DNA of 39,664 nucleotides from Aneurinibacillus terranovensis DSM 18919 (GTDB taxonomy: Bacteria; Bacillota; Bacilli; Aneurinibacillales; Aneurinibacillaceae): positions 1 to 39,664 of the forward strand of contig NZ_AUMJ01000055.1 of assembly GCF_000430625.1 (NCBI RefSeq). Reading direction: 5' to 3'. Under the pieces are notes generated by a model. It saw only the letters and a program-made list of their open reading frames with translations, ran no database searches and was not told the DNA's origin. Positions 30,006 to 33,792 of this stretch are shown piece by piece. Every line of letters starts with the position of its first letter. Position 1 is the first letter of the stretch. The position numbers and the translations under genes were made by a program.

Positions 30006-30818
30006 TTACAGAGAGCTACTCGATGTATCAGTGGTTGCGCCGTTATTGGTGTTAGTAGCGCTGTTGTCGGTGCTGGTCGCGCTGTTGTCAGTGGTAGTAG
30101 CGCTGTTATTGGTGTTAGCTGTGCTGTTATCCGTGTTTGCCGTACTGTTGTCCGCTGCCTTTGCCCCGCGGTCCTTGTCCTGCCATGTTTGTTCAACCAT
30201 CTTGGTCAGGCGCTCTTTATCCTTTTGCAGCAGCTTATTCAGTAAGTCGTCTTCGCTGACTCCTTTGCTGTTCGCAATTTGAACGAGAGTTTTTCCGGAT
30301 TGTAATTGAGTGAGGACGTCTTGTGCGTTCATTCCCAGGACAGACGCGACATCGTTGAATGAGCCTTCTCGACCCTCGTGTTCTCCTCTAAAGCCAAATC
30401 CGCCTTTATTTTCTACCATCTTTTTCATTTGATTCGGCAGGTCCGCCTTCTTCTGATCCGCTTGCGCCTGTGTTAGTTTGCCAGCTTGTACGGCCTTGTC
30501 TAATCTTTGCGAAGCTTGATTTACCAGTAAATCAATCACTTGTTGTTCTTGTACTCCTTGCGCAGCGGCGATATCAGCCAGGGATTTACCACCTTTTACA
30601 TCCTGCTGGAGCGTGGTGGCATCCAGCTTCAACAACGAGAGAAGTTCTTGATTGTCAAAATGGCCGGTGTGCTTGTGAGCGGAAGCTTCCTGCTTGGCCG
30701 CTGACGAACTTGAAGTGGAAGGGGAAGTTGTAATGGTGGCAGCGAAAGCAGAACTTGCCATGGCTACGGCAGCCACCCCGGCCATTCCAATCGAAGCGAA
30801 AGAAAATATTTTTTTCAT
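30006..30818 (-). CDS. Secreted helical protein with heptapeptide-repeat tail
   Basis: A 270-residue exported protein. A Sec signal peptide (MKKIFSFASIGMAGVAAVAMASSAFA, about 1-26) is followed by two related helical modules. Each starts with a leucine-rich helix and contains a G-K-S/T-L-x-x-I-A-x-x-x-G-V motif (GKSLADIAAAQGV about 77-89, GKTLVQIANSKGV about 175-187). The tail (223-264) is six heptads of the kind DNSATNT. The function is not known; similar modules occur in secreted proteins of Bacillales. Histidines cluster near 48-53 (HKHTGH). A response-regulator-like box lies upstream (30863-30895), shared with two neighbouring promoters. Confidence 0.8.
   Translation of the reverse strand: MKKIFSFASIGMAGVAAVAMASSAFAATITTSPSTSSSSAAKQEASAHKHTGHFDNQELLSLLKLDATTLQQDVKGGKSLADIAAAQGVQEQQVIDLLVNQASQRLDKAVQAGKLTQAQADQKKADLPNQMKKMVENKGGFGFRGEHEGREGSFNDVASVLGMNAQDVLTQLQSGKTLVQIANSKGVSEDDLLNKLLQKDKERLTKMVEQTWQDKDRGAKAADNSTANTDNSTANTNNSATTTDNSATSTDNSATNTNNGATTDTSSSSL
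30027..30152 (-). repeat. 21-bp tandem repeat encoding six heptapeptides
   Basis: Six in-frame copies of a 21-base unit encode DNSTANT, DNSTANT, NNSATTT, DNSATST, DNSATNT and NNGATTD. The unit length keeps frame, so copy number can change without frameshift. Confidence 0.85.
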
Positions 30819-30862: not shown

Positions 30863-30895
30863 ACTTTAGATAAGATCGGTGAAAAAACGGTGAAA
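30863..30895 (-). promoter_or_regulatory. Direct-repeat box and -10 for the secreted protein gene
   Basis: On the minus strand TTTCAC (30895-30890), 3 bases, TTTTTCAC (30886-30879), then 10 bases and a -10-like TAAAGT (30868-30863). The repeat half-sites are 11 bases apart, as expected for an OmpR-type dimer. The same box with the same 10-base spacing stands before the response regulator and the heme-protein gene. Confidence 0.6.
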
Positions 30896-30963
30896 TTTTT
30901 GCAGGGAAAGGTATTTTTTGTGAAAATAGAGAGGTGATATTGGTGGCCTAACCCATTAGAGGA

Positions 30964-30996
30964 TTTTACTTATTTTTCACGAAGATTATTTACAAT
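30964..30996 (+). promoter_or_regulatory. Direct-repeat box and -10 for the two-component operon
   Basis: TTTTAC (30964-30969), 3 bases, TTTTTCAC (30973-30980), then 10 bases and TACAAT (30991-30996). It implies autoregulation of the operon. No independent -35 is apparent; the second half-site occupies that place. Confidence 0.6.
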
Positions 30997-31105
30997 CGTT
31001 CGGAAGGAAAATCAAATTTTCATGGCTTTTCAGCGGCAGCCTTGATCTGAAAATCAGGAACTTTCACAGAAAAGAAACGTTAGTTTTTCATAAGGAGTGG
31101 TTTTT

Positions 31106-31780
31106 TTGAATATTTTATTGGCTGAAGATGATATGCGCCTCGGAGAACTGGTTGTTCATCTTTTGCGAAAAAAAGGAGGATACCAGGTAGAATGGGTAAC
31201 GGAGGGAGATGATGTGTACGAGTATGCCACACAATCCCATTATGACGTACTTATTCTCGACTGGATGCTGCCTGGCGAAGAAGGGATTAGTATATGTGCG
31301 CGCCTGCGCAAAGAAGGGTATTCAGGGCCAATTATTATGTTGACGGCAAAGGACGCCGTTCAGGATCGGGTCACGGGATTGGACGCCGGAGCGGACGACT
31401 ATTTGGTCAAACCGTTCGAGGTAGATGAACTTCTTGCGAGAATACGCGCGTTGGGCCGCCGCAATTATGCCCCGATTCAGGAGCAAATCGTTCAGCTGCA
31501 AAATATTATAGTCAATCTTACAAACCGCACTGTCTCGTACGGAGAAGAAGAAATTCTGTTAACACCACGGGAATTTCAACTATTGGATTTATTTATTCGA
31601 AATAAAGGGCAGGTTTTATCCCGGGAGGTCATCTATGACAGAGTCTGGGGGTATGATTCCGACGCGTCTATAAAAACTATCGATGCTACGGTTAAATTGC
31701 TTCGCAAGAAATTACACGGCCCCGGCCAAAAGGACATGATTCAGAGCATTCGTGGGGTGGGATACAAACTTGACATTTAA
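31106..31780 (+). CDS. OmpR-family response regulator
   Basis: A 224-residue regulator with a receiver domain (E7-D8-D9 acidic pocket in LLAEDDMRL, phosphorylated D52 in LILDWMLP, K near 101 in YLVKPFE) and a C-terminal winged-helix Trans_reg_C domain (ILLTPREFQLLDLFIRNKGQVLSREVIYDRVWG ... IQSIRGVGYKL). The TTG at 31106 follows AAGGAG at 8 bases; the in-frame GTG at 31097 overlaps that site. The sensor kinase gene overlaps its 3' end. It probably binds the TTTCAC-N3-TTTTTCAC boxes before this operon and both flanking genes. Confidence 0.93.
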   Translation: MNILLAEDDMRLGELVVHLLRKKGGYQVEWVTEGDDVYEYATQSHYDVLILDWMLPGEEGISICARLRKEGYSGPIIMLTAKDAVQDRVTGLDAGADDYLVKPFEVDELLARIRALGRRNYAPIQEQIVQLQNIIVNLTNRTVSYGEEEILLTPREFQLLDLFIRNKGQVLSREVIYDRVWGYDSDASIKTIDATVKLLRKKLHGPGQKDMIQSIRGVGYKLDI

Positions 31781-33152
31781 ATGGATATCACGCATTCGTG
31801 ATTGGAAAAAAGACCTGTTTATTCATACGCAAAATCGGCTCACCTTTCAATACAGCGTATTAATTACGGTTTTTCTTATGCTGTTCATCACTATTGTTTA
31901 CTTTTTGGTCAATACAACCGTTTCATTTGAACAAAGGCTGCAGCTCCAATCAACGGCCGACCAGCAGGCGGATGGAATCAGAAGTGCCCTGAAAGACCGG
32001 TTACTTAGTCCGGAGGAGCTGGAGAATATAACGGGGAATCAGGAGAATAGCAACCAATTCTTCTATTATGTAGTGAGCCCAAATGGACAACTGCTGGTTG
32101 GAGAGGAAGCTATTCACCCGTTACGGCCGGATCTTTTACATCTTGTACAGGGATGGGTACCTGAAATGAACGAAATTCGCTTTGGAACGGTTATCGCTCA
32201 CCCTCATGGACGTCACCATGGAGACGAAAAGCATCCGATTGATTTGATGATGACCGGGCGGGCTATTTATCAGGGGGATAAAGTAGTCGCGGTTTTTTAT
32301 ATAGGCAAGGACATTTCGTTTTATGATCAGTTGGTTCATCAACTGCTCGTTACGCTTGTTACATTAGGGATTTTATTTTTGGGAATTGCGTTTCTGCTTA
32401 GCTATTTTATGTCCAAACGCGCCATGGTTCCCATTCGAACATCGTTCAATCGGCAGCGGGAATTCGTCGCGGATGCTTCCCACGAGTTAAGGACTCCGCT
32501 CAGTATTCTGCACTCGTCTCTTGACGTTCTTGAGATGGAGGAAGGGGATTATATGTCGGAGTTTTCCCGAAACGTATTGTTTACGATGAAGGATGAAGTC
32601 AGGCGGATGACCAATTTGGTTGGTGATTTATTAACGCTGGCGCGTTCGGATTCCGGGGTGCCTGATCTTCGGTATGAAAGCTTTGATTTGATACCATCTG
32701 CGGAACAATTGGTTCGGTCTACGCAAACCCTTGCAGACTCGAAAAACATCCGGCTGCATTTACACACCCCCACAGCAATAACGGTGCACGGCGACCATGA
32801 AAGACTCAAACAATTGCTTTATATTCTGCTGGATAATGCGATCAAATACACGCCAAATGGGGGAGAGGTTACTCTTACTCTTTCCGAGCAAACGTATGAT
32901 AAACAACCGGCTTTATGTATCGCCGTGCAGGATACCGGTGTGGGCATCCCGCTGGGGGAACAAAAACATATATTTGACCGGTTTTACAGAGTCGATAAAA
33001 ACAGGTCCAGGCAAATGGGGGGGACAGGCCTCGGTCTGGCTATCGCCAAGTGGATTGTGGAAGCCCACCATGGAACGATTCAGGTTTCCAGTACGCCCGG
33101 GCAAGGAAGCACATTTACCGTCCTCATTCCTATCGTTCAGCAAAAAACGTAA
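31770..33152 (+). CDS. Membrane sensor histidine kinase with His-rich extracellular loop
   Basis: A 460-residue kinase with two membrane helices (about 29-48 and 192-214) that enclose an extracytoplasmic sensor domain of about 140 residues. Inside it lies a histidine cluster, HPHGRHHGDEKH (144-155), suggestive of metal sensing. The DHp H-box is ASHELRTPL with H238. The ATPase domain has the N-box LLDNAIKYTPNGG, G1 DTGVGIP, F-box FDRFYRVDKNRSR and G2 GGTGLGLAI. I chose TTG 31770, which has GGGGTGGG 8 bases upstream; GTG 31752 is possible. It overlaps the regulator gene by 11 bases. Confidence 0.92.
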   Translation: MTFKWISRIRDWKKDLFIHTQNRLTFQYSVLITVFLMLFITIVYFLVNTTVSFEQRLQLQSTADQQADGIRSALKDRLLSPEELENITGNQENSNQFFYYVVSPNGQLLVGEEAIHPLRPDLLHLVQGWVPEMNEIRFGTVIAHPHGRHHGDEKHPIDLMMTGRAIYQGDKVVAVFYIGKDISFYDQLVHQLLVTLVTLGILFLGIAFLLSYFMSKRAMVPIRTSFNRQREFVADASHELRTPLSILHSSLDVLEMEEGDYMSEFSRNVLFTMKDEVRRMTNLVGDLLTLARSDSGVPDLRYESFDLIPSAEQLVRSTQTLADSKNIRLHLHTPTAITVHGDHERLKQLLYILLDNAIKYTPNGGEVTLTLSEQTYDKQPALCIAVQDTGVGIPLGEQKHIFDRFYRVDKNRSRQMGGTGLGLAIAKWIVEAHHGTIQVSSTPGQGSTFTVLIPIVQQKT

Positions 33153-33184
33153 CGTCGTAATCCGTTGTGTTTTTTCGTTAGGGG

Positions 33185-33217
33185 TTTCACTCATTTTTCA
33201 CTTTTCTTTTCTATAAT
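33185..33217 (+). promoter_or_regulatory. Direct-repeat box and -10 for the di-heme protein gene
   Basis: TTTCAC (33185-33190), 3 bases, TTTTTCAC (33194-33201), then 10 bases and TATAAT (33212-33217). It has the same layout as the boxes before the response regulator and the secreted protein gene. There is no sigma-A -35, so activation is expected. Confidence 0.62.
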
Positions 33218-33234
33218 GAAGTTCGTTGAAAAAA

Positions 33235-33792
33235 ATGAAAAAGGTGGGAAAATGGGTGCTGGCAGCACAAAAATATTGGATACAAAATAAAAAGGAACGG
33301 ATATCGATATTCATCGCGATAGGATTAGCGGTGGTCATTATTGTCTCGGGCATTTGGAAATATGCCCATATTGATCCGGGCGTATTCCATACCCGTCAAT
33401 TTAAATTTTCATTTATGAATTACGGGTCGTTAGCTCGCATTGCACTTTTCGTGGTTTTAGCCTACTATGTAATTCTGCTCATTCTGCAAAAACGACTCCT
33501 GGACCAGTGGAATACATTGAAGAAATGGGTCATTTCATTGTCCCGGTTAGCCCGCAGACTGCACACTCCTATGGCCCTCATCGCTATTGGGCTAATCTGG
33601 GTTCACGTGATAGGAGCCTTTCTTTACGGTTTCAAATTGAATTTCTCCAACCTTAGTGGATTGCTGGCATTATTGGTTCTGCTGCCTGTGCCGGTATCCG
33701 GGTTGTTTAGATACCGCAGAATGGATCGAAAGTGGCATTTGCGCTGCGGAATAGCTTTTGCGGTGTTATTTTTGATCCATGCGTTTGTGTAA
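33235..33792 (+). CDS. Five-helix membrane protein, putative di-heme cytochrome (ferric-reductase-like)
   Basis: A 185-residue protein with five predicted membrane helices (about 24-40, 67-84, 111-132, 140-158, 166-184). Two helices carry paired histidines 14 apart, H110/H124 (LHTP...WVH) and H168/H182 (WHLR...LIH), with one helix between them. That is the bis-heme layout of ferric reductase, NOX and MsrQ membrane domains, helices III and V. No flavin domain is attached, so a partner would be needed for electron supply. The start is uncertain: the -10 at 33212 leaves almost no leader for ATG 33235, and GTG 33256 with AAGGTGGG 7 bases upstream is a good alternative. Confidence 0.7.
   Translation: MKKVGKWVLAAQKYWIQNKKERISIFIAIGLAVVIIVSGIWKYAHIDPGVFHTRQFKFSFMNYGSLARIALFVVLAYYVILLILQKRLLDQWNTLKKWVISLSRLARRLHTPMALIAIGLIWVHVIGAFLYGFKLNFSNLSGLLALLVLLPVPVSGLFRYRRMDRKWHLRCGIAFAVLFLIHAFV

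Follow-up and report, generated by a model that had tools for sequence, protein, structure and literature searches.

A conserved direct-repeat box at three promoters around an OmpR/PhoB-type two-component system of Aneurinibacillus terranovensis, a predicted envelope-stress operator

The window analysed here is a stretch of 39,664 nucleotides from Aneurinibacillus terranovensis DSM 18919 (contig NZ_AUMJ01000055.1). It carries the genes for a response regulator and a membrane histidine kinase, a divergently oriented gene for a secreted protein and, downstream of the kinase gene, a gene for a small membrane protein. The genes and the three promoters associated with them are listed below.

30006..30818, minus strand: secreted helical-repeat protein (P0001), 270 aa, with a signal peptide and a below-threshold DUF2680 match
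30863-30895, minus strand: promoter of the secreted-protein gene; box TTTCACCGTTTTTTCAC (30895-30879), 10-bp spacer CGATCTTATC, -10 hexamer TAAAGT (30868-30863)
30964-30996, plus strand: promoter of the response-regulator gene, predicted to be autoregulatory; box TTTTACTTATTTTTCAC (30964-30980), 10-bp spacer GAAGATTATT, -10 hexamer TACAAT (30991-30996)
31106..31780, plus strand: OmpR/PhoB-family response regulator (Response_reg 2e-28, Trans_reg_C 2e-24)
31752..33152, plus strand: membrane histidine kinase (HisKA, HATPase_c)
33185-33217, plus strand: promoter after the kinase gene; box TTTCACTCATTTTTCAC (33185-33201), 10-bp spacer TTTTCTTTTC, -10 hexamer TATAAT (33212-33217)
33226..33792, plus strand: small membrane protein, a probable di-heme b-type cytochrome, with four conserved histidines

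The regulator contains a receiver domain (PF00072) and a winged-helix Trans_reg_C domain (PF00486), both above the Pfam cut-offs, which places it in the OmpR/PhoB family. Its likely start is the TTG at 31106, which is preceded by AAGGAG and lies in an open reading frame opening at 31097. The kinase has a short extracytoplasmic domain with a His-rich loop, and this loop is not conserved in the alignment. For the secreted protein no function could be assigned from Pfam or NCBIfam. Translation of the small membrane protein is likely to start at the GTG at 33256, with AAAGGTGG upstream, the longest open reading frame extending from 33226; heme binding is suggested by the four histidines. A single-sequence AlphaFold model of this protein was poor (pLDDT 60, pTM 0.27) and was not used. 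Homologues adjoin other OmpR-type kinase genes in relatives (L229, L230, L232, L235), and a box-like repeat lies upstream of those in G004, G007 and L231.

An earlier note on this DNA had described the motif TTTCAC-N3-TTTTTCAC, followed after 10 bases by a -10-like hexamer, and all three sequences and their coordinates proved to be exact. The box of the regulator promoter deviates from the motif by one mismatch. Read as half-sites, the box is conserved as two TTTCAC copies in direct orientation (TTTCAC-N5-TTTCAC, period 11 bp), which agrees with the form of operators of the OmpR/PhoB family (direct repeat with a period of 10-11 bp). The lack of a sigma-A -35 element, which had also been claimed, was confirmed at the orthologous loci, where no TTGACA-like hexamer is present 16-18 bp upstream of the -10. 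Since the -35 hexamer is lacking and the box keeps a constant distance to a sigma-A -10, the promoters have the layout of class II (-35-replacing) activator promoters.

The complete host genome (4.25 Mb) was scanned for the box at 10 bases from a -10, as the earlier note had proposed. With at most one mismatch the composite pattern (box, N10, TANNNT) occurs three times, precisely at the promoters listed above and always around this two-component system, and the reversed pattern has no match at this threshold in the whole genome. The exact box, with no -10 required, is found twice in the host genome, both times at this locus (reversed control: 0), and 60 Markov-simulated windows of the same dinucleotide content yielded no composite site with up to one mismatch. 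The next-best composite sites of the host genome carry two mismatches, and weaker sites with 2-3 mismatches represent background (64 vs. 55 in the reversed control). A position-specific model gave E values of 5e-7, 5e-5 and 1e-3 for the three sites, which were part of its training set, and 0.05 for the next best. Within the window alone, 16 matches with up to three mismatches were counted where 9.6 are expected. Since such loose matches are barely above chance, the case is carried by the strict matches and their arrangement. A weak candidate for a fourth site, with three mismatches and a perfect TATAAT at 10 bases lies before the gene for a 75-aa small membrane protein (L185, G000:C8:40240-40272). 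At the host's own PspA gene no box is present.

Box and spacing are common to orthologous two-component systems of Aneurinibacillus, Brevibacillus, Domibacillus, Paenibacillus and others, in which the box occupies one or more of three places: the regulator promoter, the promoter on the divergent strand and the position after the kinase gene. The orthologous loci, fetched with the regulator as query and complemented by G004 and G007, contain 35 boxes with up to one mismatch against none for the reversed motif. Of these 35 boxes, 28 have TANNNT at a distance of exactly 10 bases and five at 15 bases, while each remaining offset between 3 and 19 accounts for one box or none; about a fifth of the boxes are without TANNNT at 10 bp. 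A further set of 30 regulator loci, drawn from 398 genomes and partly overlapping the first, showed 52 sites when up to three mismatches were allowed and a good -10 at 10 bases was required, and the reversed controls showed 0; these loci are kin by descent and not independent, and Domibacillus, Brevibacillus and others are represented more than once. The box upstream of the orthologous regulator genes is conserved, and no recognisable autoregulatory box was found in the orthologues L039, L040, L256, L263, L268 and L269. At the divergent position it is kept in L031, L033, L036, L037, L047, L048 and L049. A box after the kinase gene is present in L031, L042-L046, L049 and L177, where it lies upstream of PspA operons or HtrA.

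In the family of the host all six genomes with a close orthologue of the regulator (83-85% identity) have composite sites, and no composite site was found in G003 and G006, which belong to the same family and are without the regulator (best E values of the model 0.3 and 0.07). Exact sites are present in 11 of 37 regulator-positive genomes vs. 4 of 345 regulator-negative ones (Fisher p 1.6e-9) with genus g22 set apart, a decision made post hoc with the data already seen; if g22 is counted as negative, p for the co-occurrence of regulator and exact site is 2e-5 (398 genomes). This genus was set apart because sixteen of its genomes share what is apparently one conserved site, which represents one observation. 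The g22 genomes (L210-L225) contain the exact TTTCAC-N3-TTTTTCAC-N10-TANNNT, mostly upstream of a MurE-like gene, and possess CssR-like regulators but not the regulator studied here. In L212 and L221 an open reading frame for a ResD-like regulator lies 280-400 bp downstream of the site.

Two paralogous two-component systems with 54-56% identity are encoded in the host genome (L189, L190; C5, C6). Their boxes read TTTCAT...TTTCAG or TTTCAT...TTTTAC and precede the regulator gene with unchanged geometry, as is also the case in relatives; in the C5 system at least, another box is placed ahead of an adjacent gene for a small secreted protein. The recognition helix is KTIDATVKLLRKKL in the clade with TTTCAC boxes vs. 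NTLDAFVRLLRKKI in the paralogues with TTTCAT...TTTCAG boxes, which show the 10-bp spacing. Of the evidence from sequence, this parallel change of box and recognition helix speaks most strongly for the neighbouring regulator as the reader of the box. The 52 vs. 0 sites at the regulator loci, taken together with the correspondingly changed boxes of the paralogues, connect the box with a regulator of this type.

The box-bearing units of the host genome are the regulator-kinase genes and the genes for the secreted helical protein and the small heme-type membrane protein. In relatives the predicted regulon extends beyond three promoters: boxes precede PspA/IM30 genes located behind a small membrane protein gene, genes for HtrA-type proteases (in Domibacillus, G114 and G008) and for HlyD/MacB (MacAB-type) efflux, and also genes for PepSY proteins, for proteins with a copper-amine-oxidase-like N-domain and for a lysozyme-like protein. 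G008, which is A. tyrosinisolvens (proteins 100% identical to L048), harbours ten sites with up to one mismatch on eight contigs; they precede three secreted-protein paralogues, four PspA genes and one HtrA gene, and two of the box-bearing PspA clusters include genes for signal peptidase I and a lysozyme-like protein. A model search in G009 independently recovered a distant secreted-protein paralogue and a lysozyme-like gene. This predicted target content points to cell-envelope or secretion stress, and the regulon is best read as an envelope-stress response, small in the host genome, whose induction by envelope or secretion stress is suggested by the kind of its predicted target genes. The regulator gene of A. 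tyrosinisolvens (L048:1318-1988, G008:C7:196233-196592) is apparently frameshifted after about residue 123 despite the ten operators, due to either an assembly error or a real lesion.

Four known systems are relevant for comparison. The PHO box of PhoB replaces the -35 about 10 bp before the -10, and the phoB operon is autoregulated. The present locus shares the 11-bp direct repeat and the promoter layout with PhoB, but its half-site is TTTCAC and envelope genes instead of phosphate genes are concerned; against the NCBIfam PhoB equivalog the regulator scored 207.7 bits, below the cut-off of 296.2. PhoB-type regulators bind the 11-bp direct repeat as a tandem dimer, head to tail, and contact sigma (PMC4415409). 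CssRS, which responds to secretion stress in Bacillus subtilis and controls HtrA proteases, has a half-site related to that of the present system, for which HtrA proteases are candidate targets in relatives. CssRS is autoregulated. Because of the candidate HtrA targets and the similarity to the canonical octamer of Bacillus CssR, TTTTCACA (PMC6749698), identity of the regulator with CssR was tested. It was rejected: the two are 34% identical, and G002, G004 and G007 encode both the regulator and a CssR orthologue (62-63% to the B. subtilis-type query). At the cut-off used, G000, G008 and G009 yielded no CssR orthologue (for the host, E 1e-45). A real protein in G237 is 96% identical to the CssR query, so that the comparison rests on a real sequence. 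The arrangement of CssR sites at the locus of CssR itself also differs from that described here. The present two-component system is different from CssRS and is predicted to work in a similar field. LiaR, in turn, belongs to the NarL/LuxR type and uses a different operator; the regulator of the present locus is instead OmpR-type with Trans_reg_C and not of the NarL/LuxR type. LiaRS drives a small membrane protein and a PspA operon (PMC9239133), and a comparable unit appears to be under the control of a two-component system in the relatives. The best NCBIfam match of regulator and kinase is cyanobacterial RppA-RppB, with both proteins below the curated cut-offs (225 vs. 250 and 250.7 vs. 400 bits). 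By analogy, the system is best regarded as PhoB-like at the promoter and CssRS/LiaRS-like in its physiology.

We consider it very likely that the three boxes are the operators of an autoregulated OmpR/PhoB-type activator encoded between them, which would replace the -35 and run an envelope/secretion stress regulon. The membrane kinase would sense an envelope signal and phosphorylate the regulator, a dimer of which would bind TTTCAC-N5-TTTCAC head to tail over the missing -35, at about -39 to -23 from the expected start if the -10 is placed at -12 to -7. The bound regulator would then recruit sigma-A RNA polymerase to the good -10 exactly 10 bp downstream. As a consequence expression of the regulator-kinase operon would be raised, and from such positive autoregulation a sensitised or switch-like response is to be expected; the divergent secreted protein and the downstream heme-type membrane protein would be raised as well. 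In relatives the same operator may drive PspA operons, the HtrA protease, MacAB-type efflux and lysozyme-like and PepSY genes. Activation is suggested by the layout, which matches that of PhoB-type activation with no -35-like hexamer left. An OmpR-type activator over the -35 that governs itself and both neighbours had been proposed in the earlier note, and all comparative tests favour this reading: genome-wide specificity, conservation at the same three positions in several genera, co-occurrence, co-change of helix and box, and absence of the sites from relatives without the regulator.

Repressors bind in the -35 region too, which the operator overlaps, and sequence alone does not give the sign of regulation. 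The regulator might thus repress at the same boxes and keep the promoters shut until it is dephosphorylated. This is improbable, since there is no -35 hexamer that unaided polymerase could use, and the good -10 at rigid spacing is as in PhoB-type activator-dependent promoters (PMC4415409). We hold it to be very unlikely that the boxes are read by another OmpR-family regulator of the host genome and not by the neighbouring one. The two close paralogues (54-56% identity) and the use of the related TTTTCACA octamer by Bacillus CssR (PMC6749698) speak for such a regulator, but the paralogues have a variant box of their own and a different recognition helix, the search of the host genome for a CssR orthologue gave none at E 1e-45, and the sites track the neighbouring regulator across genomes. 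Finally, the boxes are T-rich and matches with 2-3 mismatches are at background level, as would be expected from a chance likeness of T-rich promoter sequence; given the uniqueness in 4.25 Mb and the conservation, with reversed controls at zero, the probability of this is next to nil, in line with the earlier judgement that the arrangement is unlikely by chance.

No published description of the box or of the system was found in the open-licence literature, and the locus probably represents an undescribed but conventional stress regulon. We lean towards the broader view that Aneurinibacillus, Brevibacillus, Domibacillus and related Bacilli possess an undescribed envelope-stress regulon with one rigid PhoB-type operator, which would assume CssRS/LiaRS-like duties (HtrA, PspA), would in A. 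tyrosinisolvens have grown to four units with PspA and three with the secreted protein, and would have been duplicated into paralogues with co-change of operator and helix. Eight PspA genes have been reported for A. tyrosinisolvens (PMC9239133), and the operator on four of these eight offers an explanation for part of that set. As judged from the sequence comparisons, the finding is real, well supported, functionally informative and of a known kind; what it offers is a defined operator together with a predicted envelope-stress regulon, and variants from nature on which specificity can be studied. A two-component system that had not been studied, and that occurs in several genera of Bacilli, among them Brevibacillus, a genus used as host for protein secretion, is thus given a precise predicted operator. 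Genes for PspA, HtrA and efflux would be connected through a single regulator, and the paralogous pairs represent a natural test case for the change of DNA specificity in OmpR-type regulators.
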